Positions 2,205-33,499 of a stretch of 45,792 nt of DNA are shown here, piece after piece. How positions within the stretch are numbered: position 1 is the first letter of the stretch; each line of letters starts with the position of its first letter. The notes beneath the pieces are model-generated. The model did no database searches. It was not told the DNA's origin and worked only from the letters and a program-made list of their open reading frames with translations. This DNA comes from a virus, in the IMG/VR virus record IMGVR_UViG_3300037225_000328, positions 1-45,792 of that record; one strand, given 5' to 3'. The translations under genes and the position numbers were made by a program.

Positions 2205-3215
2205 TTAGTCATCTTCATATCCGTTGCGAGATCGTCCGTGAACTCGAAAACGACGGCGGTAAAACTCGCTAATCCGTTGCCCGCCGGCATTGTCCCAAAC
2301 GAAGCACAAACTCTCAAATTGGGACTGTGCATCTCCATTAAACATTTCGTCAATCTGGTCATAAGTCATATCCTTGACCGCATCCACAAATCGCGTATGC
2401 GCGATAATCCAGTACATGATGGTTTTTGCATGAAGCGTTCCATCATGCAAGCGAACCTCAAAAGTCTTGTGCTTGCTGTATGCTTGCAGATTGAGGTAGT
2501 TGTACCGATCCGAGTCACTGAAAAAGCTGGCAATTGACCCGCGACAGTCACGAATCGCGCTTGCTGAATACCGAGGGGCATGGCAATAGAAACTATCGCA
2601 AGCCCGATACTCAGAGACTAGACCGCGCCAAGCAACATAACTCTTAGCATACGCATAAGCGACATGCCGCAATTGAACGGTAGTCTCATCACGCATGTCA
2701 AGGTGCAAATGATAGCCACAGTCATCATTTACAGTATAACCATGCTCATCGGCCCAACGACAGAAATTTTCAACTTCTGTCAAACCCTCATCACCGTACA
2801 GGATCGGGGTAAAAAACTCCATCCCCCGAACACTGCAATCATACTTAGCGCCAAAAAGGGTTTTACCCTTCAATTGACGGTAATCATCGCAAGAGTGAGT
2901 TTCCAACTCAATCCCAAACTTTCGCTTGCTTGCGATGTTCCCATAATGGGCGATGGAAACCGGGCTAGGAGTCGGCTCCCACGTATCTCCTGCGCGGTAG
3001 CATTCCTCACAAATTCGGACATTATCGCGGGTTCGTCGGCTACAGTCAAGCCACCGGACTTCATTGCACTCCGGGCAAATGAAGCAATAGGCCGTCCAAC
3101 AGCGGGAGCAAAACAAACTCCCATCCGGAGCCCGTTGCATCAAATCATCATAATGCTCTTCCCGGCAGTGACAGCAAAGGCTCCGAGTACGAGTAATGGT
3201 AGCAGTGTTAGGCAC
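2205..3215 (-). CDS. Amidoligase-family enzyme with N-terminal zinc modules (paralogue 1)
   Basis: 336-residue protein. Residues 14-72 carry repeated Cys pairs (CxxC at about 14-17, 36-39, 47-50 and 69-72), read as two zinc-ribbon or LIM-like modules. The rest matches the glutamine-synthetase-fold amidoligase family (Amidoligase_2 type): GIELE at 101-105, a GMEFFTPIL strand near 131-139 and the signature CGYHLHLD at 166-173. The family is predicted to join a carboxylate to an amine using ATP. Two paralogues lie downstream (5365-6348, 7349-8743), with a class II glutamine amidotransferase between. GTG start chosen, with an AAAGGGA site 5 nt before it. The substrate is not known; the zinc modules may bind a partner or target. 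Confidence 0.85.
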   Translation of the reverse strand: MPNTATITRTRSLCCHCREEHYDDLMQRAPDGSLFCSRCWTAYCFICPECNEVRWLDCSRRTRDNVRICEECYRAGDTWEPTPSPVSIAHYGNIASKRKFGIELETHSCDDYRQLKGKTLFGAKYDCSVRGMEFFTPILYGDEGLTEVENFCRWADEHGYTVNDDCGYHLHLDMRDETTVQLRHVAYAYAKSYVAWRGLVSEYRACDSFYCHAPRYSASAIRDCRGSIASFFSDSDRYNYLNLQAYSKHKTFEVRLHDGTLHAKTIMYWIIAHTRFVDAVKDMTYDQIDEMFNGDAQSQFESLCFVWDNAGGQRISEFYRRRFRVHGRSRNGYEDD

Positions 3216-3848: not shown

Positions 3849-4721
3849 TTAACTCTTTTGCCCATCATCGGTTTCATCCATGCTTCCGCTGTATTGAGCC
3901 CAAGCTTCCCTCCAATCTTGGTCATAGTCCTTCACATTGGCACCCGCGCCCACATACTCATCATCCTCCCACCGCGAAGTGCTAGCGCCCTTACCGCTGG
4001 TGTAAACCACCCGACCCTGACGCTTGCCCTCATACCACTCCGTAGTATTGCTGCATCCGTACTTACGCCCCCAGTATTCCGGGGCTTGCGACACAAACGG
4101 GGCAACCACTTCAACCTTACCATCCTGAGAGAAGCGGATAGTCTCACCCTCACCTACGGCCTTGATTGTATCACTATGACCGATACACTGCGCTAGATGT
4201 TTGGCGCTAGAAGAGTAGTACCAAACCCCTCGATACTGGCCGTAATGAAGTTCCCCATTGTGAACTTGGAGATAGAAGTATTCCCCGTCAAACCAGGAAA
4301 CCCCCCAATATCCGCAAACCGTCCCCCAAGCGCTGTTATAGTCGCCCTTGTGCTTAGCAAGGGAATCAAACAGGAATTGGGAATCCACGGCATAACCATC
4401 CGGGGCGTCAACAATACCATTGTGCGCTCCGATGATTCGGCCGTAGCGGAAGGGGTGAGAGTTGCGGCGGTTTACTGCGCCCCGCGTAGCGAGTCGCGTA
4501 TGCCCTGCCACAAACCACGTATCACACTCAGACCGCTCTAACCAAGCGGAGATGTTCTTTTGCTGTAGACCCTCAGACGGAGTAACGGCCGCCTTGATCA
4601 TCTTGCCGGTTGAATCGAAGAAACCAAGGCTATCGGTTCCCCGATTTTCATTGGCAAGCACAAGAGCGCGGAGGATTCCGAGATTCCAGCCTTTACCAAT
4701 AGCTCCGTATATGCCGCACAA
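3849..4721 (-). CDS. Class II glutamine amidotransferase (Ntn hydrolase)
   Basis: 290 residues from a TTG start. The TTG is followed directly by TGC, so after Met removal Cys2 is the N-terminal nucleophile (CGIYGAIG), as the family requires. A run AAGAGGA ends 8 nt before the TTG and decides this start over an upstream GTG (4781) that lacks a ribosome site. Other class II features are HTRLATRG and the His-Asn-Gly of the glutamine pocket. The enzyme would release ammonia from glutamine. No synthetase domain is fused, so the amidoligases on both sides are the likely acceptors of the ammonia. The C-terminal 60 residues are acidic and low in complexity. Confidence 0.9.
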   Translation of the reverse strand: MCGIYGAIGKGWNLGILRALVLANENRGTDSLGFFDSTGKMIKAAVTPSEGLQQKNISAWLERSECDTWFVAGHTRLATRGAVNRRNSHPFRYGRIIGAHNGIVDAPDGYAVDSQFLFDSLAKHKGDYNSAWGTVCGYWGVSWFDGEYFYLQVHNGELHYGQYRGVWYYSSSAKHLAQCIGHSDTIKAVGEGETIRFSQDGKVEVVAPFVSQAPEYWGRKYGCSNTTEWYEGKRQGRVVYTSGKGASTSRWEDDEYVGAGANVKDYDQDWREAWAQYSGSMDETDDGQKS

Positions 4722-4824
4722 AGTAACTATCCTCTTATTAAACCACGTAGACCGGAAACCTATAGTGTCAAGGTTAATCACCGGGGCGGAAGGGGCTTAA
4801 TTGTTCCTTGCCGCTCTATAATGA

Positions 4825-5364: not shown

Positions 5365-6348
5365 CTATAGTCCCCTCCCCGCCATTGATACATCCGCTAG
5401 TGTCCGTCGATTATGAGGTACTCGCCAGAATTGGGCATAATACCGGGCAAGCCGGGGGCCTAGAATCTGGCGCATGGTGCGCTTTGCGCGCCGCTCATCT
5501 CTGAACATATTGCGGATCCGTGCAAATGTCTTATCCTTGACAAAATCGACAAATCGCAAATGCGCAACAATCCAGTTACAAATCTCCGGACCCCGAAGAG
5601 TCCCCTGATACCCCCGAATCTCAACAGTCTTATGACTCCCCCAAGCCCGCCAATTGATAAACTCGTAGCGGGTCAAATGTCGGGCAAATGTGTCAAAACT
5701 GGCCGCATTAAGCACGGTTTCGGCTTCATAGTCCGGAGGGCGACAAAAGCAATTTCTCAATCGATCAGGATCCACCAGCTTTTGCCACAATTCGATGGTT
5801 AATCGGTAGGCATAAGCAAGATGCCGACGTTGCAAACTAGTAGATTCGCGCAGATCAATGTGAACGTGAAAACCGCACTCATCATCAACCTCAAAGTGGT
5901 TTTGATGGGCAAGTCGGCAGAACTTGCGAATCTCCGCTAATCCCTTGTCCCCTTGGAGAATAGGAGAAATAAACTCTAGCCCGCTAATACTTCCATCCTC
6001 TTTAGCGCCAAAACAAGTGTGCCCGCGTAACCGAATATGATTAGGACAATCGGCAGTTTCTAATTCAACCCCAAAACAGCGCTCACTATGCGTTTTGATG
6101 AACGTATTAGCGGATGAATGAAACTCTGTTTCCCGCCAACGGGAAATAGCAGACCAACAATCATAACAGATAGGTTGCCCGCGATCATTGCGCTGAGTAT
6201 CATCCCGAGAAGCAACGTTCCCGCAATCAGCACAAAGGAAATAGCGGGAACTAAAGCAGCGCTGACAATACACATACCCGCAGGCCCTTTGGCTTGATTC
6301 GGCCGTAACGGGGCACCCACATTGATCGCAATGGCTTCTAGCTGGCAT
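5365..6348 (-). CDS. Amidoligase-family enzyme with N-terminal zinc modules (paralogue 2)
   Basis: 327 residues. Cys pairs at about 7-10, 28-31, 39-42 and 61-64 form two zinc-binding modules. The catalytic region keeps GVELE (93-97), a GLEFISPI strand and CGFHVHID (158-165), the hallmark of the amidoligase family. About one-third of residues look shared with paralogue 1 by eye, including the FGAKxD and KTVEIR/KTFEVR segments. The ATG is 6 nt after TATACT, predicting a leaderless mRNA, whereas paralogue 1 has a leader. An HNH gene follows directly. Confidence 0.85.
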   Translation of the reverse strand: MPARSHCDQCGCPVTAESSQRACGYVYCQRCFSSRYFLCADCGNVASRDDTQRNDRGQPICYDCWSAISRWRETEFHSSANTFIKTHSERCFGVELETADCPNHIRLRGHTCFGAKEDGSISGLEFISPILQGDKGLAEIRKFCRLAHQNHFEVDDECGFHVHIDLRESTSLQRRHLAYAYRLTIELWQKLVDPDRLRNCFCRPPDYEAETVLNAASFDTFARHLTRYEFINWRAWGSHKTVEIRGYQGTLRGPEICNWIVAHLRFVDFVKDKTFARIRNMFRDERRAKRTMRQILGPRLARYYAQFWRVPHNRRTLADVSMAGRGL

Positions 6349-7348: not shown

Positions 7349-8743
7349 TTAATGGGGAGCTTCATCCAAATCGTAATAAAACGCTTCTCGTCTAGGCGCA
7401 TCGACCACCCACGCAAATGGACGTTGCGGAGCCCGCCGCGCTGGTTGGGGCCTAAGCGATTTATGCCATTCTTCGGATTTTCTGATCCAATACTCCGCTA
7501 ACTCAGGACCAATAATCTCCGCAATAGCGACAAAATCCTCGCGGGGAGTGTTATGGAAAAGACTGTCAAGTTCCGAAAAACTCTTATCCTTGACAAAATC
7601 AATAAATCGGGCGTGAAGGATAAGCCAGTTACAAATCTCCTCAGCGTCAAGACTGCCTTGATACAATCTAACCTCAACACTGCCATGAACCAAATAAGCC
7701 CGCCAGTTGACAAACTCGAATCGGTCACGCTTTCCGACAAAGTAGTCAAAATCCTCATGGGTAATGTCGCTACTCTCATAATCAGGAGAACCGCAATAAC
7801 GGTTATCACTGCGAGAATTAGGCACTAAGGAACACCAGACCTCATAAGTCCTACGATACGCATAAGCTATTGCTTTCAGCGAATCGGTAGACTCAGTGCT
7901 TACATCAAAGTGAGCATGATAGCCACATTGCCTACTTACCTCAAAATGCAACTCTTCGGCCCGCTGGCAGAATCGTTCAATTTCTTCTAATCCTTCATCT
8001 CCATACAAAATGGGCGAAACGAACTCCATACCCTCAATAGAACAATCATGCTTACACTCCCAAATGGTGTGACCATTAAGAACATTATGATCAGGGCATC
8101 GGTAAGTTTCCAATTCTACCCCAAACCGCCGCCTTGAACCGATACGATCATAATGAGAATCGGAAACGGTAAAACTGCCCATTTCCCACTCACTCGACGG
8201 GCGGTAACAATCACGGCAATAAGGGCGATCATCCGACCATTGGGCCGAATCGTTCCATAACGGGTTTCCACAACCGCTGCAATTTACGCACAAATCATGG
8301 AAACATTCATCACAGTAATAGCTATCGCCAGGGGTGCGAAAACGTTCCCGTTGATGGAATGTTTCCTCGCAATTGTCACAAACGAAAAATCGACGATCAA
8401 AGCATCGGGCGCAATAGTGTTCATTATCTGGCCCGACAGTCGCCCGCCCCCGATTTACTTCCCGACCGCAACCGTAGCATTGCGTAAACATACTATCATA
8501 ACAGTAGTCACAATAGAAAGTTCCGTTACTAGAGATTCGCCCATCTTCGCGGACAATATACTCTTGACAATGACAACATTGTCGAAAAAGCATCTCAAAG
8601 CAAGCCGGGCAGTAGGAAAATCCATCCGGCCCTTCGTGGGCTTCTGTTAATGGCTTATTGCAATGGCTACAAAACTCTGCCACTTGGCGCACCGGGGGCG
8701 TAGACTCAATACGCGTACCGGGAAATGGGCGCTGGGTTGGCAT
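7349..8743 (-). CDS. Amidoligase-family enzyme with about five N-terminal zinc modules (paralogue 3)
   Basis: 464 residues, the longest of the three paralogues. Residues 25-180 hold a string of Cys pairs spaced like LIM or zinc-ribbon repeats (CxxC at about 25-28, 45-48, 56-59, 78-81, 89-92, 111-114, 122-125, 144-147, 155-158, 176-179). The catalytic part has GVELE (208-212), a GMEFVSPIL strand and CGYHAHFD (273-280). The ATG is 6 nt after a perfect TATAAT, so leaderless translation is predicted. The C-terminal 50 residues are Arg/Pro-rich and probably disordered. Likely acts with the nearby amidotransferase. Confidence 0.85.
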   Translation of the reverse strand: MPTQRPFPGTRIESTPPVRQVAEFCSHCNKPLTEAHEGPDGFSYCPACFEMLFRQCCHCQEYIVREDGRISSNGTFYCDYCYDSMFTQCYGCGREVNRGRATVGPDNEHYCARCFDRRFFVCDNCEETFHQRERFRTPGDSYYCDECFHDLCVNCSGCGNPLWNDSAQWSDDRPYCRDCYRPSSEWEMGSFTVSDSHYDRIGSRRRFGVELETYRCPDHNVLNGHTIWECKHDCSIEGMEFVSPILYGDEGLEEIERFCQRAEELHFEVSRQCGYHAHFDVSTESTDSLKAIAYAYRRTYEVWCSLVPNSRSDNRYCGSPDYESSDITHEDFDYFVGKRDRFEFVNWRAYLVHGSVEVRLYQGSLDAEEICNWLILHARFIDFVKDKSFSELDSLFHNTPREDFVAIAEIIGPELAEYWIRKSEEWHKSLRPQPARRAPQRPFAWVVDAPRREAFYYDLDEAPH

Positions 8744-13965: not shown

Positions 13966-14474
13966 ATTTTATTCAATACGGCAAAGGGACCACGACATTT
14001 TATTGCGGCTTCATTATAGGCTCTTGCGGCATCTTTCTTATTAGTAAAAATCCCCAAAAAACTTTGTTTACCTTTAACTCGAATATTAGCTACCCATTTA
14101 TTTCTTCGTTTATCCTCAGTAACACCCGTGTATCCCGATGTATTATTTTTACGCTTACCTTGATTCGAGTTACTTTGTGAATCTGTTGCAATTCGCAAAT
14201 TACTTCGTTGATTATTTAATCCATTTCGATCTTTATGATCTACTTTTTTATCTTTAATATTAAGATGCATTCTTTCAGCAATAGCTTGATGCATTCGTAA
14301 TGTTACAAATTTTCGACAACCACACAGTCTACAGGGCTTTGTTTTTGAAAGATTTCTTTCGGCATAAAAAGTTATTCTATTTTTATGCGCGAACCACTTC
14401 CATTGCATTAAGTAAGTATAATCTTTATTAGAGACTAATACAAACTTGCCTTGTGTGAGCGGAATTCGTTTCAT
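13962..14474 (-). CDS. HNH-AP2 homing endonuclease directly after the tmRNA
   Basis: 170 residues. N-terminal beta segment (Gln-Trp-Lys-Trp-Phe-Ala), a CRLCGCRKF zinc pair not seen in its relatives, HNH core MHQAIAER...DHKDRNGLNNQ near residues 64-92, then an AP2-type DNA-binding domain (SGYTGVTED through a KDAARAYNEAA helix, residues 115-160). The ATG starts 2 nt after the discriminator base of the tmRNA (A-CT-ATG), exactly as at 20289-20768 after tRNA-Lys. No ribosome site is seen. Confidence 0.92.
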   Translation of the reverse strand: MKRIPLTQGKFVLVSNKDYTYLMQWKWFAHKNRITFYAERNLSKTKPCRLCGCRKFVTLRMHQAIAERMHLNIKDKKVDHKDRNGLNNQRSNLRIATDSQSNSNQGKRKNNTSGYTGVTEDKRRNKWVANIRVKGKQSFLGIFTNKKDAARAYNEAAIKCRGPFAVLNKI

Positions 14475-14476
14475 AG

Positions 14477-14773
14477 TGGAGATGCCGAGAGTCGCACTCG
14501 GGTCTTAATTGCTTCTAGTGGTATATCTACATACATAGTTATTCGTTATTCAACAGCCCAAATAACTCGGCTGATCTATAAATGTACATCAACTGTCAAT
14601 TACTAACGACTTCTGCTACATTGACACTTACAGTTGTCTTGGCAGCTTTACGCAGCCAGTGCTAATTGCGGTTTGGCAATTAAATAATTTAGTCAGCTTT
14701 TAACGTGGCCAACTGACTAACCACGGTATGCAACACTTCCTGTTCACAATTAATCGAAACCTACTTCATCCCC
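14477..14773 (-). ncRNA. ssrA: Transfer-messenger RNA (tmRNA)
   Basis: The 5' end GGGGATG pairs with 3' CATCTCC as a 7-bp acceptor stem containing the G3-U70 pair that marks alanine charging. The discriminator is A; CCA is not encoded. The T arm is CCGAG-TGCGACT-CTCGG. The 5' part carries the D-arm-like GTAGGTTTCGATT conserved in tmRNAs. An H2 helix, TGCATAC (14726-14732) with GTATGTA (14528-14534), matches the E. coli layout. The tag frame (14648-14677) reads GCC resume codon then AKPQLALAA and TAA, preceded by TTAATT as in ssrA. Length 297 nt. It would free ribosomes stalled on broken mRNA and tag the product for proteolysis. Confidence 0.93.
14648..14677 (-). CDS. tmRNA proteolysis tag frame
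   Basis: Internal reading frame of the tmRNA: resume codon GCC (14675-14677), tag AKPQLALAA, stop TAA (14648-14650). The hydrophobic ALAA end is the usual degron for ClpXP-type proteases. Confidence 0.85.
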   Translation of the reverse strand, partial: AKPQLALAA

Positions 14774-17217: not shown

Positions 17218-17511
17218 TTACCGATTGCTTTTATCCAATTCACGTATTCGCTCCTTGTATTTGGCGTATAGATTATGTAAATCTTGTTTAGCAGTCGAAA
17301 CTTGAAGTTTGGCATCATGAAGTTTTCGTCGAAGATACTTTCTCATCCAGGTATAAGCTTCTTTCAAATCTGTAAAGATATTTTCTTCATAAACCTTAAA
17401 TTCAATTTGAAACTTATCTTTAACCCATAGACTTTGGTTATCAATGCGTTTAATTACTCGAAGTTTTTCAAGCCCATATTTCGTTGCCATGTATACAATT
17501 GGTTCATTCAT
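17218..17511 (-). CDS. Hypothetical protein with C-terminal coiled coil
   Basis: 97 residues from an ATG that overlaps the HNH stop. The first half is beta-rich (Ile-Val-Tyr-Met-Ala-Thr, Leu-Trp-Val-Lys); the second half (about residues 52-97) is a long Lys/Glu/Leu helix with heptads, ending Lys-Ser-Asn-Arg. Unrecognised. Confidence 0.7.
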   Translation of the reverse strand: MNEPIVYMATKYGLEKLRVIKRIDNQSLWVKDKFQIEFKVYEENIFTDLKEAYTWMRKYLRRKLHDAKLQVSTAKQDLHNLYAKYKERIRELDKSNR

Positions 17512-17995
17512 CTTTAATCTCATTTAAAGTGGCAAACTCGCCAAAATATTTTAAAGCCGCTTCATTATATGCTTTTGCTGCATCTATTTTAGTATCAAAG
17601 AATCCTAAAGAAATAAATTTATTATCAACTTGAATTTGAGCCCGCCATTTAGATCCATGTTTAAATTGGGAAACACCTTTATAGCCAGATGTATTATTTT
17701 TATATTTTCTTCGATGAGCAGAATTTTGAGAATCTGTTGCTAACCGTAAATTATCTCTTTGATTATTTAGTCCATTTCTATCTATATGATCTACCTCCCC
17801 TAGAATTCCCATTCTTTCAGCAATAGTTTGATGCATACAAATAGTTTTTCGTGGGGGATTTTTTCTGCTTGTTTTTCGTCTTGCGTAGAATGTAAATCCT
17901 ATTTTAGCAGCATACCACTTCCATTTCATCAAGATATCATAATCTTGGTCATCTAATAGAGCAAACTTGTCTTGTGAGAGTAGTATCTGTTTCAT
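17504..17995 (-). CDS. HNH-AP2 homing endonuclease
   Basis: 163 residues. KWKWYA near 25, HNH core MHQTIAER...DHIDRNGLNNQ (residues 54-80), AP2 domain SGYKGVSQF to IDAAKAYNEAA (about 105-150). It overlaps the GGPP-family gene upstream by ATGA and the next gene downstream. Member of the same family as 15336-15821. Confidence 0.92.
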   Translation of the reverse strand: MKQILLSQDKFALLDDQDYDILMKWKWYAAKIGFTFYARRKTSRKNPPRKTICMHQTIAERMGILGEVDHIDRNGLNNQRDNLRLATDSQNSAHRRKYKNNTSGYKGVSQFKHGSKWRAQIQVDNKFISLGFFDTKIDAAKAYNEAALKYFGEFATLNEIKDE

Positions 17996-18429
17996 CCTGC
18001 ATACCTTTCAGCAGCAGCAAGATCGTTCCATTCGTCAGATTTCTCTTCTTCGTAACTTTTATTCTTCCAATCGACAATATCATTTAATTTAGTTTTAACA
18101 AATTTAAGTCCGTGTTTAGAAACTTCTCGGAGTACCCGGTCTACTATAAAAGTTGCTACAGTTCCTTTATATCGCGCAATTTCCGTTGGACCCCCATCAA
18201 AGATTATATTAATTTCAGTCAACGGGCGAAAACAATCTGCGCTCTTCAACATACTACTAACCGAAGTCTGAAAGGCAGTGCCTCTTAATGTAAAAAAATC
18301 CTGCTCGTATCCACCTAGATTTTTAAGGAGAATACACGCCTGAACAGTATCGAATGTATTAACAAGGGCCATAATTGCAGTAATTAGTGATCGTCGCTTA
18401 TTCTCGGTTTCAATCTCTTGGTGCATCAT
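17992..18429 (-). CDS. GGPP-family protein, divergent eighth member
   Basis: 145 residues. The C-terminal region (Phe-Asp-Gly-Gly-Pro-Thr, 7 residues, then Lys-Gly-Thr-Val-Ala-Thr-Phe-Ile-Val-Asp-Arg-Val) matches the GGPP...GTLLTxLxDR core of the tandem family at 30025-33093, about 12 kb away. An N-terminal helical part (Ala-Leu-Val-Asn-Thr-Phe-Asp-Thr) parallels theirs. The second Pro of GGPP is Thr here. It has an acidic C-terminal extension. Family function unknown. Confidence 0.75.
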   Translation of the reverse strand: MMHQEIETENKRRSLITAIMALVNTFDTVQACILLKNLGGYEQDFFTLRGTAFQTSVSSMLKSADCFRPLTEINIIFDGGPTEIARYKGTVATFIVDRVLREVSKHGLKFVKTKLNDIVDWKNKSYEEEKSDEWNDLAAAERYAG

Positions 18430-20946: not shown

Positions 20947-21014
20947 TCGGGCCTGTGGGACTCAAACCCACAACCTCCCGGTTCCTCCCGGTGCTCCTAT
21001 TAAGCTAAGGCCCG
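20947..21014 (-). tRNA. Irregular tRNA-like RNA, anticodon unclear
   Basis: Perfect acceptor CGGGCCT/AGGCCCG, discriminator A, perfect T arm GTGGG-TTTGAGT-CCCAC, but a shortened D arm (GCT/AGC) and an anticodon hairpin CCGG-GAGGAA-CCGG with a 6-nt loop and no U33. It is 68 nt long, several bases short. Either a decayed tRNA or a tRNA mimic. Confidence 0.45.
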
Positions 21015-28811: not shown

Positions 28812-29083
28812 TAGCGTAGTACCTGCTTGCGAGTTAGCTCAAATGTTACTGTGCCTAACTTACGACCCGTCTTATCTCGAACTACCGCCACGCGAGAAAC
28901 TGGTAGATTCTTAGGCCATAGACGTACATTGTCTACAACATTCTTCAAGCTAGTCTTCCCATCCAATGGAAGTGTCTGCTTATCAATGTCTACCTTCACA
29001 TCGTCACGGGTGGGCATTGAATTATACAAGCCCGTGAATCCATAATTGCCACCAACAATCTTGATACTGTAAAAAAGTGTCAT
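28811..29083 (-). CDS. Hypothetical protein, 90 residues
   Basis: Unrecognised. Beta-rich (Lys-Ile-Val-Gly-Gly-Asn, Arg-Val-Ala-Val-Val-Arg) and basic at the C-terminus. ATGA overlap upstream and a TAATG-style overlap downstream. Confidence 0.65.
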   Translation of the reverse strand: MTLFYSIKIVGGNYGFTGLYNSMPTRDDVKVDIDKQTLPLDGKTSLKNVVDNVRLWPKNLPVSRVAVVRDKTGRKLGTVTFELTRKQVLR

Positions 29084-29466
29084 ATCAAACTCCTCGAAAT
29101 ATGTGGCTTTAGTGCCTGTAAAGCCCGCAAGCCCATCGACATACAGTAGTGTCGTTCATTTGGCACAACGACGGCTACTAAATCTCTAAGATCATCTTTA
29201 CTAAAGTTTTGAAGTTCGGCCACAGTTCTACCAACCATAGCCTCCGCAATAATCGCACAACACGCATCACAAACACAGCACCCTCTTGGAAAGATCCCAA
29301 TTTCTGATAAGATGCTATTTTTAATATTAGCCTCGACATAGACATTATCTCCACAAATTGGACTCTGAACTTCCGCGCTATGAGTAATTACGGATGGATG
29401 AATTGGCTTTTGGGCTTTTTCCCAATAATTTAGCATACGCTCAGTGTATAATTCATAACTACTCAT
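29080..29466 (-). CDS. NifU/IscU-like scaffold protein (copy 1)
   Basis: 128 residues from an ATG with AAAGG 7 nt upstream, which gives the expected family start (SYELYTERMLNYW). Motifs: SPICGDNVYVE near residue 35 (first Cys ligand), RGCCVCDACCAI near 62 (second) and a late HYCMSMGL (third). These match NifU/IscU N-terminal scaffolds for Fe-S assembly, though the middle segment is Cys-rich. No IscS or ferredoxin gene is seen nearby. Copy 2 lies directly upstream. Confidence 0.8.
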   Translation of the reverse strand: MSSYELYTERMLNYWEKAQKPIHPSVITHSAEVQSPICGDNVYVEANIKNSILSEIGIFPRGCCVCDACCAIIAEAMVGRTVAELQNFSKDDLRDLVAVVVPNERHYCMSMGLRALQALKPHISRSLI

Positions 29467-29506
29467 TGCACCGCCTTTTATAGCAGCAAGTCTAGTCCCA
29501 AGTGGT

Positions 29507-29896
29507 TTATTCATCGTTTACTTGTCTACATTTACCACGTTCTTTTGTATCCCAATTAAAACACCCTTCAACTGCCGCTTTTACAACTTTTAAGCAAGTT
29601 GTTCTTTTATATTCTTCAAAAGGAAGTAATGCTTCGGTAGCGATAGTATCTACTGAAACCAATTGACAGCCTTCTAAAGCATCAGCTACAACAGAAGCGG
29701 CTGATAAAACAATAGGACAGCCAGTGCCTTGCCAACGAATTTCTTCGATATGACCCCGATAAACTTTTGCTTGAAAGGCAATAAAATCCTCATGCTCAGG
29801 ACCACGCGCTGCCCCCGAGTGTGTGAATCTAACAACCCTACCAAAATTAATCGGTTCGCTTATATGTCTCGAAATCAAATCCATCAAATCCATCAT
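29507..29896 (-). CDS. NifU/IscU-like protein with altered first ligand (copy 2)
   Basis: 129 residues. QGTGCPIVLSAASVVADALEG is the GxGCxxxxASxSxxxxxxxG element of IscU, and a late RTTCLKV gives the third Cys. The first ligand, Cys-Gly-Asp, is replaced by Gly-Pro-Glu-His-Glu-Asp, so this copy may not hold a cluster alone and could pair with copy 1. Several in-frame ATGs follow an AGGGGAAG site; the first was kept. Confidence 0.75.
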   Translation of the reverse strand: MMDLMDLISRHISEPINFGRVVRFTHSGAARGPEHEDFIAFQAKVYRGHIEEIRWQGTGCPIVLSAASVVADALEGCQLVSVDTIATEALLPFEEYKRTTCLKVVKAAVEGCFNWDTKERGKCRQVNDE

Positions 29897-30024: not shown

Positions 30025-30339
30025 TTAACAGCCAACTCTCCTTTCAATTTGAGTCACGTTGTAAAGCATCTTATCTAGGATCATTGTTAATAAACTTCCA
30101 GCCAACCATCTTACATGGCCAGGTGGACCACCGCAAAATAAGATTGGACCTGCGCCAGCAGCCGGATAATCTCCTGGAAATACATCAAGTAACTCTATAG
30201 GTGTTATGGTTTTATTACCTGTTTTAGTGGGTCTAATGATTGGTTCATTAAGACTGTTATGGAATAATAAATATTCACCTGCTTCATTTACACTCATTGA
30301 ACCATGCCGGGTAATAAATTCCTCTATATCTATTTGCAT
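30025..30339 (-). CDS. GGPP-family protein A
   Basis: 104 residues. An N-terminal helical half, then a strand Gly-Pro-Ile-Leu-Phe-Cys-Gly-Gly-Pro-Pro, about 7 variable residues, and AGSLLTMILDKML. This GGPP...GxLLTxLxDR core is shared by seven neighbouring genes in tandem. No known family is recognised. The ATG lies inside the stop region of gene B. Confidence 0.75.
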   Translation of the reverse strand: MQIDIEEFITRHGSMSVNEAGEYLLFHNSLNEPIIRPTKTGNKTITPIELLDVFPGDYPAAGAGPILFCGGPPGHVRWLAGSLLTMILDKMLYNVTQIERRVGC

Positions 30340-30683
30340 GTTGCTTTTACTTTACTCAATGCTTGCCCTACAACATGAAACTTGCCTTTTGCTAATTGAA
30401 AAGCGGCATGATCAAGTAACATGGTTAAAAGTGTTCCATTAAAATGCCGCCCTTTCCCCGGTGGGCCACCATAAAATTGTATTTCTAATTCATCGGCAGC
30501 AATATTGGCCCAATACTTCGGAAGAGTTAAAAGTTCTTTTAGAGAAAAATAAAGGCCATCCACAAATACCCGCGAATTAGGGGCTTCAAAAATATTACAG
30601 AGAATCTCTAAAGCTTCCAACGCCGTCACATGCTGGAAAAATTCCTGTAAACGAGTTAAGTCAATTTTATGATGCATGTCCAC
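30330..30683 (-). CDS. GGPP-family protein B
   Basis: 117 residues. N-terminal helices (Val-Thr-Ala-Leu-Glu-Ala-Leu-Glu-Ile-Leu), a Ser-Arg-Val-Phe-Val-Asp-Gly strand, then FYGGPP, 7 residues, GTLLTMLLDH and a C-terminal helix. Here the Arg of DR is His. Confidence 0.75.
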   Translation of the reverse strand: MDMHHKIDLTRLQEFFQHVTALEALEILCNIFEAPNSRVFVDGLYFSLKELLTLPKYWANIAADELEIQFYGGPPGKGRHFNGTLLTMLLDHAAFQLAKGKFHVVGQALSKVKATCK

Positions 30684-31083
30684 TTATTAAATCCGCATAT
30701 CCACCTTGAAGAAAATGGATATAAAGAATACGATCACACAGCACAGTTAATAATGTACCTTGAAATTGTCGGGCAGCATTATTTGGAGGGCCGCCCCAAA
30801 AAAATAATGGACCCACTTCAGATGCCGCAATGGTATGATCTTTACATAACTCCCAAATTTGTGAAATAGTTGTTTCACGCCCACTAGGGAATCTCACATG
30901 TCCATTGGCTAAATTAAATTCATCAATTAAAGTTCTAGCCGCATCCGAGGCTGAAATTTTCCCCAGTGTCCGATTTAGATTTGAAATCATTGGACACCGT
31001 TTTTGCAACAACTTTTGATTCCGTCGTTGTTTCTTTAAGGCTGCTTGCCGGGATCGATCAAAGGCAAATTTATTCTGCTTCAT
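30667..31083 (-). CDS. GGPP-family protein C, leaderless
   Basis: 138 residues. A basic Lys/Arg/Gln-rich N-terminal extension of about 30 residues, then the family layout ending FFWGGPP, 7 residues, GTLLTVLCDRIL. The ATG is 6 nt after TATACT, so this gene starts a transcription unit that also covers A and B. Confidence 0.8.
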   Translation of the reverse strand: MKQNKFAFDRSRQAALKKQRRNQKLLQKRCPMISNLNRTLGKISASDAARTLIDEFNLANGHVRFPSGRETTISQIWELCKDHTIAASEVGPLFFWGGPPNNAARQFQGTLLTVLCDRILYIHFLQGGYADLISGHAS

Positions 31084-31089
31084 ATATAA

Positions 31090-31117
31090 AGTATATCATA
31101 AAACTTAGACTTGTCAA
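31090..31117 (-). promoter_or_regulatory. Promoter for GGPP genes C-B-A
   Basis: Minus strand TTGACA (31112-31117), 16-nt spacer, TATACT (31090-31095), 6 nt, ATG. The -35 lies in the stop region of the HNH gene. Confidence 0.88.
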
Positions 31118-31671
31118 GTCTGGTGGGGACATTTTCCAAAATGTGCCTTAGCCTCATTGCAATTCCAGCATAGACATTGAAAATCCCTTTTAGGGTAGTT
31201 ATGTTGCTTTAGCCAAGTATAAAACAAGGCTGTTGTTACACCGTCTCGGCGATGTTTAGCTCCATCATTATGTATATGATCAATGGTTAAAAATTCATAC
31301 ATTGATTCACCACAACATTGACACTCCCCACCATAGGCAATAATAACTTGTTGTTTTAACTTCTTACGGGCTTTCTGGCGTGATAATCTGCATTCATCTG
31401 GGTGCTGTTGTTGATATTCTCGATGTTTCTTTTTAAGTCGCTCTTTATTTTTTTGCTGATATTTCTTTTTATAATCTTTAATTTTCTCTTTATTTTTTTC
31501 CTCATATTTTCTTCGAGTAGCTTTAACCTTATTCTTATTTTCTTGTCGATATTTTTTAGCAATATCTGCGTGACACTTTTTACAATGTGGATATGGTTTT
31601 CCATTTGACCACATATAAAAGTCGTTAATATTTTTTCGTTTAGCACATTTTGTACAGATTTTAGTTTTCAT
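31114..31671 (-). CDS. HNH endonuclease with N-terminal zinc finger and Lys-rich coil
   Basis: 185 residues from the ATG near an AAGAG site. CTKC (6-9) and CKKC (30-33) form a zinc finger, then a long Lys/Glu/Gln coiled segment (about 40-100), then an HNH core: CQCCGE near 120, LTIDHIHNDG with the catalytic Asp-His, and a late CLCWNCNEAKAH. A different subfamily from the HNH_3 and AP2 types. It interrupts the tandem GGPP array between members C and D. Confidence 0.9.
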   Translation of the reverse strand: MKTKICTKCAKRKNINDFYMWSNGKPYPHCKKCHADIAKKYRQENKNKVKATRRKYEEKNKEKIKDYKKKYQQKNKERLKKKHREYQQQHPDECRLSRQKARKKLKQQVIIAYGGECQCCGESMYEFLTIDHIHNDGAKHRRDGVTTALFYTWLKQHNYPKRDFQCLCWNCNEAKAHFGKCPHQT

Positions 31672-32047
31672 TAGCATACTCTTGTGGAAACAGGGGTTTT
31701 GCAGCGAGCATTCCATCTGCTAGAGCAGCCATCATAACTCGATCGATCAATAGGGTTAATAAGGAACCTCTATATATCTTCTTATAGCCCGGTGGACCAC
31801 CATAGAACTTCACTGAAATGGATTTTGCAAGACAACCTGCCACATCGGTTCCAATTAGTTCCCAAACTTGACCTCTATCTCGATTTCCCCAAATACCATC
31901 AACATACAAAGAATCTTTCTCACAACCATATTCACGCATTGATTCAACAAACTGAGAAACTCGCATAAACTGAAATTCAGTAAATATACGCCCGCATAAC
32001 AGCATTGCTATGGCTCGATTAAAATGCCGTGTATTTCGTATTACCAT
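31661..32047 (-). CDS. GGPP-family protein D
   Basis: 128 residues from an ATG with AGGATAGGAT upstream, 4 nt after the stop of gene E; the longer frame is a shadow of E. Core Val-Lys-Phe-Tyr-Gly-Gly-Pro-Pro, 7 residues, GSLLTLLIDRVM. Its N-terminal half (Phe-Thr-Glu-Phe-Gln-Phe-Met-Arg) is the most divergent. Confidence 0.75.
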   Translation of the reverse strand: MVIRNTRHFNRAIAMLLCGRIFTEFQFMRVSQFVESMREYGCEKDSLYVDGIWGNRDRGQVWELIGTDVAGCLAKSISVKFYGGPPGYKKIYRGSLLTLLIDRVMMAALADGMLAAKPLFPQEYANEN

Positions 32048-32051
32048 TATC

Positions 32052-32393
32052 CTATCCTTTGGCGGCACGAATACCGACTCGCAATGCTCGCTTGGCACAG
32101 TCAAATCCGTATTCAGCAACAATTCGGGCAATCCTGTCGAGGAGGTAAGCGTAGAAACTGGCTTGCACCCATCTACCAAACTTAGGTGGACCGCCCCAGA
32201 AGCTAATGTGTACGCATCTTGGATGGCAGCCGGAATACATTTGGTTGAGGAGTTTATCAGGTGTCGTAGCTCTATTCTTGAATATGATGTCATCATTTTG
32301 TTCGCCAAGATAATAAATAATATCTAAGGTATCACTAAGATGTAAAGGTTCAAACTTCTTTAGTAGTGACTCAGCTTGTTGTACAGGGTTCAT
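32052..32393 (-). CDS. GGPP-family protein E
   Basis: 113 residues. Core Ser-Phe-Trp-Gly-Gly-Pro-Pro, then 7 residues, Ala-Ser-Phe-Tyr-Ala-Tyr-Leu-Leu-Asp-Arg, so the GTLLT element is changed to ASFYAY. Otherwise the helical N-terminus, strand and C-terminal helix are kept. ATGA overlap with gene F. Confidence 0.75.
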   Translation of the reverse strand: MNPVQQAESLLKKFEPLHLSDTLDIIYYLGEQNDDIIFKNRATTPDKLLNQMYSGCHPRCVHISFWGGPPKFGRWVQASFYAYLLDRIARIVAEYGFDCAKRALRVGIRAAKG

Positions 32394-32758
32394 ATCTTAC
32401 ACTGTAAAAATCGTTTTAGCAAATCGTTTCGCTTGTGTGCTACTGCATCCATTATTCGGTCAGAAAGAAATGTAAATAAAGTCCCATTAAACCAATTATA
32501 TTGCCCTGGTGGTCCCCCAAAAAATCTAATATAAATATGGGCTGCGGGAATATTTTCTAAGTAAGACTTCTCAGCCAACATTTCTAAGGGCGATGTATCT
32601 TCCCCACAAAATCGAATCTCAGCATGACCTGCATTAAAACAATAATGAAGGATATTAACTGCCTGTCGAACAGTTATATCTCTAGTTAGGCGTTCACTAA
32701 CTTCTGCTGTATAATTAGGTTTAGAAGTAAACCCGGCATCTGCGGAAATTACAACCAT
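32390..32758 (-). CDS. GGPP-family protein F
   Basis: 122 residues from an ATG with AAGAAGG 7 nt upstream. Helical N-terminus (Val-Arg-Gln-Ala-Val-Asn-Ile-Leu), then Arg-Phe-Phe-Gly-Gly-Pro-Pro, 7 residues, GTLFTFLSDRIM and a Lys/Arg tail. Overlaps gene G by 10 nt. Confidence 0.75.
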   Translation of the reverse strand: MVVISADAGFTSKPNYTAEVSERLTRDITVRQAVNILHYCFNAGHAEIRFCGEDTSPLEMLAEKSYLENIPAAHIYIRFFGGPPGQYNWFNGTLFTFLSDRIMDAVAHKRNDLLKRFLQCKI

Positions 32759-33093
32759 ACATGAACCTTCTTGGGTGCAATACAAATAACTTCTCTAGCT
32801 GCTTGAACCCCATGAGCCTGAATCTTATCAAGTAATCTGTCACAAAGCAACGTATATAAAGTTCCACGATAATATTTTAAGTGTTTAGGCGGCCCGCCCC
32901 AAAAAAGAAATGGTCCTACATTTCGAGCTATTTGATGTTTAACCGTATCTTCAAGAATAACATCTCTAATATCAAAAAGTTGTCCCTTAGAAAATACCGA
33001 GATACTAGGTTCCCCCAGTGCCTTAATAATAGTATAGGCTTGGGGGGCCGTAATATCCTGAATCAAACTCAAAATCTCTACTGGTAACTTCAT
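32749..33093 (-). CDS. GGPP-family protein G, leaderless
   Basis: 114 residues. Thr-Ala-Pro-Gln-Ala-Tyr-Thr-Ile-Ile helix, Ser-Ile-Ser-Val-Phe-Ser-Lys-Gly strand, Leu-Phe-Trp-Gly-Gly-Pro-Pro, 7 residues, GTLYTLLCDRLL. The ATG is 6 nt after TATAGT; it starts the unit G-F-E-D. Confidence 0.8.
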   Translation of the reverse strand: MKLPVEILSLIQDITAPQAYTIIKALGEPSISVFSKGQLFDIRDVILEDTVKHQIARNVGPFLFWGGPPKHLKYYRGTLYTLLCDRLLDKIQAHGVQAAREVICIAPKKVHVWL

Positions 33094-33099
33094 ATTACA

Positions 33100-33127
33100 A
33101 CTATAGCATTTTTTATGCCGAAGTCAA
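33100..33127 (-). promoter_or_regulatory. Promoter for GGPP genes G-F-E-D
   Basis: Minus strand TTGACT (33122-33127), 16-nt spacer, TATAGT (33100-33105), 6 nt, ATG. Confidence 0.85.
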
Positions 33128-33499
33128 ATTATTCTTTCCAATATTAACTAACTCCCTAATCATTGTCACCCGTAAAGCATTTTGTTCAGGAGTAATCGGT
33201 CGCCAATGTTCATCAGATTCCTCATGTAACTTAAATTTATCAGCATTCATCCACCGTTGACAAAATTCATATAATCTTGTCGGTTTAATATCTAAATCTT
33301 CTGGAATCCCTGAATCCGTTAATTTACAATCCCGAAAAAATCTATATTGTTCTCTCTCTACCCATTGCTTATAAATCTCGGGTTGTGCGTCTCGAAGCTT
33401 CAAGCCAAGCATTGTCGCAATCTGACGGGCGAACAGGGTTCGCGCCGCTTCTGGGACGCGCCCTTGAAGGCCGGTGATTATTTCTACGAACTCTTTCAT
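33113..33499 (-). CDS. Hypothetical protein, 128 residues, long 5' overlap
   Basis: Helical protein with a Trp-Val-Glu-Arg-Glu-Gln-Tyr-Arg-Phe segment and an Ile-Thr-Pro-Glu-Gln-Asn-Ala-Leu-Arg-Val-Thr-Met-Ile-Arg-Glu-Leu C-terminus, resembling the end of 27605-27958. Its first 44 codons overlap the upstream gene by 131 nt. An internal Met at 33412 is an alternative start, still overlapping. Confidence 0.65.
   Translation of the reverse strand: MKEFVEIITGLQGRVPEAARTLFARQIATMLGLKLRDAQPEIYKQWVEREQYRFFRDCKLTDSGIPEDLDIKPTRLYEFCQRWMNADKFKLHEESDEHWRPITPEQNALRVTMIRELVNIGKNNLTSA

Follow-up and report, generated by a model that had tools for sequence, protein, structure and literature searches.

Organization of the gene array

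The stretch of DNA analyzed here, referred to as the window, comprises bases 1-45792 of the 109,792-base IMG/VR record IMGVR_UViG_3300037225_000328, which belongs to an uncultivated phage, and contains eight paralogous genes on the minus strand that encode small proteins of about 105-145 residues each. Seven of these genes are located within 33093-30025 and the eighth lies apart at 18429-17992 (Table 1); a ninth member was not found in the 110-kb contig. An earlier reading of the bare sequence (the original prediction) had described such an eight-member family, with seven clustered genes and an eighth at 17992-18429, and all of these open reading frames (ORFs) are present. The seven genes had also been described as a tandem array. 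They are indeed placed nearly side by side, but the run is broken by a gene for an HNH endonuclease between members 4 and 5 and is therefore not fully contiguous. All other neighbours overlap or almost touch, with 4 nucleotides (nt; ATGA) shared by members 2 and 3, and this co-directional arrangement fits a single transcription unit.

Table 1. Coordinates of the family members, the adjoining genes and the putative promoters (aa, amino acids).
Feature	Position	Strand	Remarks
Upstream neighbour gene	33113..33499	-	Helical; adjoins array in 5/5 phages; unrelated to family
Sigma-70-like promoter, member 1	33100..33127	-	Putative; TTGACT-16-TATAGT; expected +1 at ATG
Array member 1	32749..33093	-	114 aa; recovered by profile search; position-1 clade spans five phages
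Array member 2	32390..32758	-	122 aa, ATG start chosen; overlap of 10 nt with member 1
Array member 3	32052..32393	-	113 aa; GTLLT site reads ASFYA
Array member 4	31661..32047	-	128 aa; probable start ATG 32047
HNH endonuclease gene between members 4 and 5	31114..31677	-	ORF runs to 31716, ATG 31677 being the likely start; phrog_2255, E 6.4e-15
Sigma-70-like promoter, member 5	31090..31117	-	Putative; TTGACA-16-TATACT; expected +1 at ATG
Array member 5	30667..31083	-	138 aa; strongly basic N-terminal tail; 8-residue spacer
Array member 6	30330..30683	-	115-117 aa; chosen for structure prediction
Array member 7	30025..30339	-	104 aa
Detached member 8	17992..18429	-	145 aa; GGPT; six-residue spacer

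The eight genes form one homologous family

Relatives of the family were found in IMG/VR by means of degenerate DNA patterns for F-x-GGPP-x7-G[TS]-L, which identified four further carriers, namely IMGVR_UViG_3300032156_000005 (G005), 3300001533_000890 (G006), 3300037245_001295 (G007) and 3300027917_000032 (G008). Scans with other patterns returned only the same four relatives or the window record itself. A profile hidden Markov model (HMM) trained on the other four phages only recovered exactly these eight proteins among the 486 ORFs of the window, with E-values of 3.3e-25 to 1.4e-12, and the next-best ORF reached an E-value of 0.75. Using HMMs that left out one phage at a time, 37/37 members across the five phages were recovered, the weakest being L038_m9 (2.4e-4), in which the F and one G are lost. 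This confirmed that the eight genes constitute one real homologous family, beyond what chance would produce.

The consensus GGPP-x7-GTLLT..DR given in the original prediction holds only in its core. In the eight-member alignment six columns are invariant, which are the start Met, F, G, G, P and the D of 'DR', and in 32 aligned members from five phages F68, G70, G71, P72 and D89 are invariant, with G81 present in 31/32. The remainder of the consensus is looser: within the array only member 5 departs from a 7-residue spacer after GGPP, having 8, and the detached member has 6, GTLLT is exact in just two members (the variants are GTLYT, GTLFT, GSLLT, ASFYA and GTVAT), 'DR' is replaced by DH or DK in two members, and the detached member carries GGPT.

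Additional segments are present in some members of the related phages. The last array members of G007 and G008 share a C-terminal extension (..FDP....QL..SIP..; L039 9182-9889, L040 8396-8821), and the detached G008 member (L040 3847-4563) ends in a four-cysteine zinc-ribbon-like tail. These tails appear to be additions to the common scaffold.

The array is conserved in position across a phage lineage

Compared to the window phage, the major capsid proteins of this five-phage lineage are 60-62% identical and the DNA polymerases 60-68%. Profile searches yielded 7 members in G005, 9 in G006, 7 in G007 and 6 in G008, where the number for G005 is a lower bound, as the contig ends soon after the array. 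The main array contains 7, 7, 7, 5 and 5 genes in the five phages, with totals of 6-9. In all five phages the array directly follows the same helical gene (the upstream neighbour in Table 1), indicating syntenic placement. This neighbour was also considered as a relative of the family itself and was ruled out by comparison; its predicted model was too uncertain to interpret (predicted template modelling score, pTM, 0.47). The family was not found in the records G001-G004, which carry a related capsid, but these records are fragments.

A comparison of the window with G005 revealed that the best shuffle-normalised match lies at the same array position for 7/7 members, which a random permutation would give with a chance of 1/5040. 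Six of the seven array members are genome-wide reciprocal best hits with 31-38% identity, whereas such hits between both phages have a median identity of 43% over 75 pairs and reach about 59% for the capsid and about 67% for the polymerase. The array therefore diverges faster than capsid and polymerase and about as fast as other small accessory genes do. The same-position matches indicate that the paralogs are old and individually maintained.

The phylogeny of the members is in line with this. Position 1 forms one clade across all five phages (bootstrap 83-90). A weakly supported group (52) unites the position-2 members of the window phage, G006, G007 and G008, and the G005 position-2 member falls outside this group, yet it is the reciprocal best hit of window member 2. 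Furthermore, G006, G007 and G008 have detached members that group together in one clade (96). Member 8 of the window falls outside this clade, but it has the shortened spacer in common with it and pairs with the detached G008 member as reciprocal best hit, so that its orthology to the detached members elsewhere is probable. A local duplication is evident in G006, where m3-m6 cluster with a single G007/G008 member. In G005, members 4 and 5 overlap and the HNH gene is absent at this junction, which means either an insertion into the lineage of the window phage or a loss from that of G005. As far as sequence comparison can tell, the set represents an old, maintained and vertically inherited gene battery and not a fast-changing binding loop.

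Such conservation might also be expected if the paralogs were non-identical subunits of one hetero-oligomer, for example a ring, filament or cage, with the GGPP hairpin as shared interface and a stoichiometric supply from overlapping genes. The one-to-one positional orthology with G005, the retention of position 1 in five phages and the invariant patch within otherwise 20-30% identical proteins would all agree with such an assembly, and the overlapping genes suggest coupled translation of its subunits. Sm/LSm rings are hetero-oligomers of diverged paralogs, and the likeness is that about seven diverged paralogs with a common small fold stay together. However, the order of secondary structure elements differs from that of Sm/LSm proteins, the association of the family members is a conjecture, and the fixed set of subunits expected of a hetero-oligomeric ring was not found across the five phages, since copy number varies and G006 has duplicated one type. 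In addition, the window array is split by the HNH gene and a second promoter. We regard a hetero-oligomer as the main alternative, though a rather unlikely one.

Predicted structure and search for known relatives

An AlphaFold2 model of member 6, built from the 32-sequence alignment, is confident (predicted local distance difference test 94.0, pTM 0.86) and predicts the elements H7-14, H19-29, E36-39, E42-45, H46-50, H53-56, E65-70, E77-82, H83-96 and H100-113 (H, helix; E, strand). The predicted fold thus consists of two helices, a hairpin, two short helices, a second hairpin with the GGPP turn and two final helices. A comparison of profiles did not detect an internal duplication of two hairpin-helix halves. 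In the model the fixed residues lie on the hairpin turn and the following helix, and D89 is the sole polar invariant side chain, so that no catalytic set is visible.

Foldseek searches against the PDB gave nothing convincing (best E 0.49, template modelling (TM) score at most 0.29 among the matches listed). Against BFVD no match reached E < 1e-3 or TM > 0.5; the best E was 0.008 with a TM-score of 0.22, and the match of highest probability had a TM-score of 0.35. Two phage proteins similar in size to the family members, A0A0B5H2Z5 of Vibrio phage phi 3 (109 aa, Foldseek E 0.02) and A0A2H5BGG9 of Vibrio phage Ceto (146 aa, Foldseek E 0.1), were not accepted as relatives, because the fold similarity is weak (TM-score 0.31-0.35, root-mean-square deviation 8-11 A) and a search of both genomes with the family profile gave no match at E<=10. 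Within the PDB and BFVD the predicted fold is probably new.

The original prediction had recognized no known family, and this is borne out by the sequence searches. Scanning the members singly against Pfam-A, PHROGs, NCBIfam and PADLOC gave no significant profile match and only chance-level single-member hits (best E about 0.03), and there was no profile match to PDB sequences (best E 0.37). No relative was found among the INPHARED phages using tblastn, where a single microvirus match (E=0.1) was judged as chance, and single-member scans of IMG/VR as well as searches of plasmids and 84,980 prokaryote genomes remained without a match; the prokaryote, plasmid and INPHARED searches were based on single sequences or motifs and would miss diverged relatives. 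The literature offered analogies only. Based on these comparisons, the protein family appears to be new within the libraries searched, none of which provided a strong match to a characterized family.

The spacer shows no sign of being a diversifying loop

According to the original prediction, the seven residues between the conserved flanks were thought to act as a diversifying binding loop. In the model these residues follow the GGPP turn and make up the hairpin tip and the second strand (77-82). Aromatic residues predominate in two of the seven columns (78 W/Y, 79 Y/F). The mean column entropy of the loop is 2.96 bits compared to 3.00 bits for the non-motif remainder of the protein. Likewise, identity between orthologs is 26/102 in the loop vs 357/1148 in the rest (Fisher p=0.26), and identity between non-orthologs is 15.9% vs 16.0% (p=0.85). 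Hence, the flanks are unusually fixed, but the loop is not unusually variable. The ratio of non-synonymous to synonymous substitutions (dN/dS), which had been suggested as a check of the loop, was calculated for the closest orthologs: dS was saturated in three of four pairs, which makes the synonymous-site test uninformative for the loop, and the fourth pair (dN 0.61, dS 2.4) gave weak evidence of constraint.

Fast-diversifying binding-loop cassettes, as envisaged originally, would fit the location of the loop between strongly conserved flanks. As variability in the loop does not exceed that of the remainder in either orthologs or paralogs, and the paralogs occupy the same positions in the window phage and in G005, contrary to the behaviour expected of freely recombining variable cassettes, this explanation is contradicted at the present divergence and we give it hardly any credence.

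Putative promoters and possible leaderless transcripts

The 110-kb contig contains 23 strong sigma-70-like promoters compared to 1-7 in six shuffled versions, and 21 of them are located on the minus strand. In 11/21 of these minus-strand promoters (TTGACW-TANANT) an ATG is positioned exactly six bases past the -10 hexamer, which corresponds to the expected +1 (binomial p = 3e-13). These ATGs are found at 33093, 31083, 16497, 13931, 9473, 9243, 8743, 6348, 1837, 1418 and 36145, and the promoters of members 1 and 5 both place the ATG of their gene at the expected transcription start. Three ATGs with the same six-base spacing are present in 20 kb of G007, and the distances between -10 hexamer and ATG are 8, 6 and 5 bases for G005 member 1, the G007 detached member and the G008 detached member, respectively. 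This pattern suggests leaderless mRNAs that would be made by the host RNA polymerase from a promoter module used across the phage.

Other features of the window

Two adjacent genes, 29080-29514 and 29507-29896 (-), each match NifU_N (PF01592; E 7.6e-8 and 3.6e-6) and resemble a pair of iron-sulphur scaffold proteins. The pair is located between the array and the next gene shared with G005, where it has no reciprocal best hit. A second HNH endonuclease gene at 17504-17995 (-) abuts member 8, as the ORF 31114-31716 abuts members 4/5, and perhaps both HNH genes home near the conserved DNA of the family.

The window also harbors three amidoligase-like paralogs at 2205-3215, 5365-6348 and 7349-8743 (-), with a glutamine amidotransferase-like gene at 3849-4781 among them, which possibly serve in peptide or cell-wall modification. 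Leaderless-type promoters precede two of the three amidoligase-like genes. Moreover, a complete phage-encoded transfer-messenger RNA (tmRNA) with the predicted tag AKPQLALAA was identified at 14474-14773 (-), and a fifth tRNA-like match (Rfam, 41 bits) at 20947-21014 (-) is absent from the ARAGORN output.

Possible role of the gene battery

The array is separated by at least about 50 kb from the virion genes (about 81-108 kb) and lies in a region of nucleic-acid and accessory genes. The members are small, paralogous and conserved throughout the lineage, as might be expected for virion-associated proteins, i.e., several variants of a decoration or internal head protein. The distance to the capsid, portal-like and tail genes and the array's own host-type promoters make this very improbable. 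Proteins that bind nucleic acids or mimic DNA, with phage or host DNA/RNA as their target, would suit the neighbourhood, which includes a pyrimidine-dimer glycosylase-like gene, an exonuclease-like gene and a DNA methylase, as well as the strongly basic tail of member 5. Predicted isoelectric points, however, range from 4.6 to 10.6 and net charge differs between orthologs (+8.8 vs -7.2 at position 5), which argues against nucleic-acid binding or DNA mimicry as a common role, and Foldseek found no DNA-binding fold in the PDB. We consider this role improbable.

We tentatively favor, with somewhat less than even confidence, that the family is a battery of small soluble proteins of one fold which serves as a multi-target kit for host takeover or counter-defence. 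Transcription of the array would be early and due to the host RNA polymerase, and the F-x-G-G-P ... G-[TS] ... D core, being invariant, would hold the fold at the hairpin turn and the following helix instead of forming an active site. The rest of the surface, which varies between the paralogs, would give each of them a binding partner of its own, most likely a protein of the host or of its defences. The members would thus be non-enzymatic binders on a common scaffold. The changes in copy number and the local duplication in G006 fit an adaptation to such partners.

Related arrangements are known. Immunity genes of the type VII secretion system (T7SS), such as EsaG, TsaI and TipC, occur as strings of small non-identical paralogs directed against polymorphic toxins (PMC9484751), and the likeness lies in the tandem arrangement of non-identical small paralogs of one family. 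The T7SS immunity arrays are cellular, whereas the family described here is encoded by phages and has no sequence match to them in Pfam or NCBIfam. Furthermore, EsaG and TipC arrays change through recombination among their paralogs, but here positions are held one-to-one with G005 at 31-38% identity, and the scrambling of positions expected of a recombining EsaG-like array was not observed in this comparison (7/7), with G006 m3-m6 as a local exception. The ToxN inhibitor TifA of phage T4 undergoes segmental amplification, so that its copy number rises during counter-defence evolution (PMC9391042), and it is likewise a phage accessory protein with copy-number change. The tifA copies arose in experimental evolution, whereas the copies of the family are old and diverged; homology to TifA was judged only via the family libraries. 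By analogy, the tandem battery of diverged small paralogs resembles known arrangements, and in T4 counter-defence is already known to evolve through changes in copy number.

Several points weigh against a takeover or counter-defence kit. The partners, the targeted defence systems and the phenotype of such a kit are hypothetical, and the PADLOC scan of the members was empty. Early expression is predicted from the promoter sequences; a search for the strict promoter pattern gave no match immediately upstream of member 1 in G007 or G008, and the corresponding gene of G006 has a conventional leader with GGAGG. Counter-defence genes usually turn over fast, but position 1 has been retained by each of the five phages; the divergence of the array is in the lower quartile for the window-G005 pair, but not exceptional. 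Finally, a hetero-oligomer may explain the positional orthology with G005 almost equally well.

The most far-reaching form of the favored interpretation is that a new fold, confined to one uncultivated lineage, was expanded by ancient duplication into a battery of 6-9 proteins which neutralize or redirect different host components after leaderless early expression. We consider this combined scenario doubtful as a whole. As the family was undetected by every sequence library tried and its predicted fold is without a convincing match, it is a clean target for structure determination. The leaderless promoter layout yields a prediction on how this phage lineage would start expression. Since the paralogs keep their positions while core genes have diverged to about 60%, the five phages may serve as a natural experiment on the reason for retaining several versions of one small domain, which sets many host targets against one hetero-complex.

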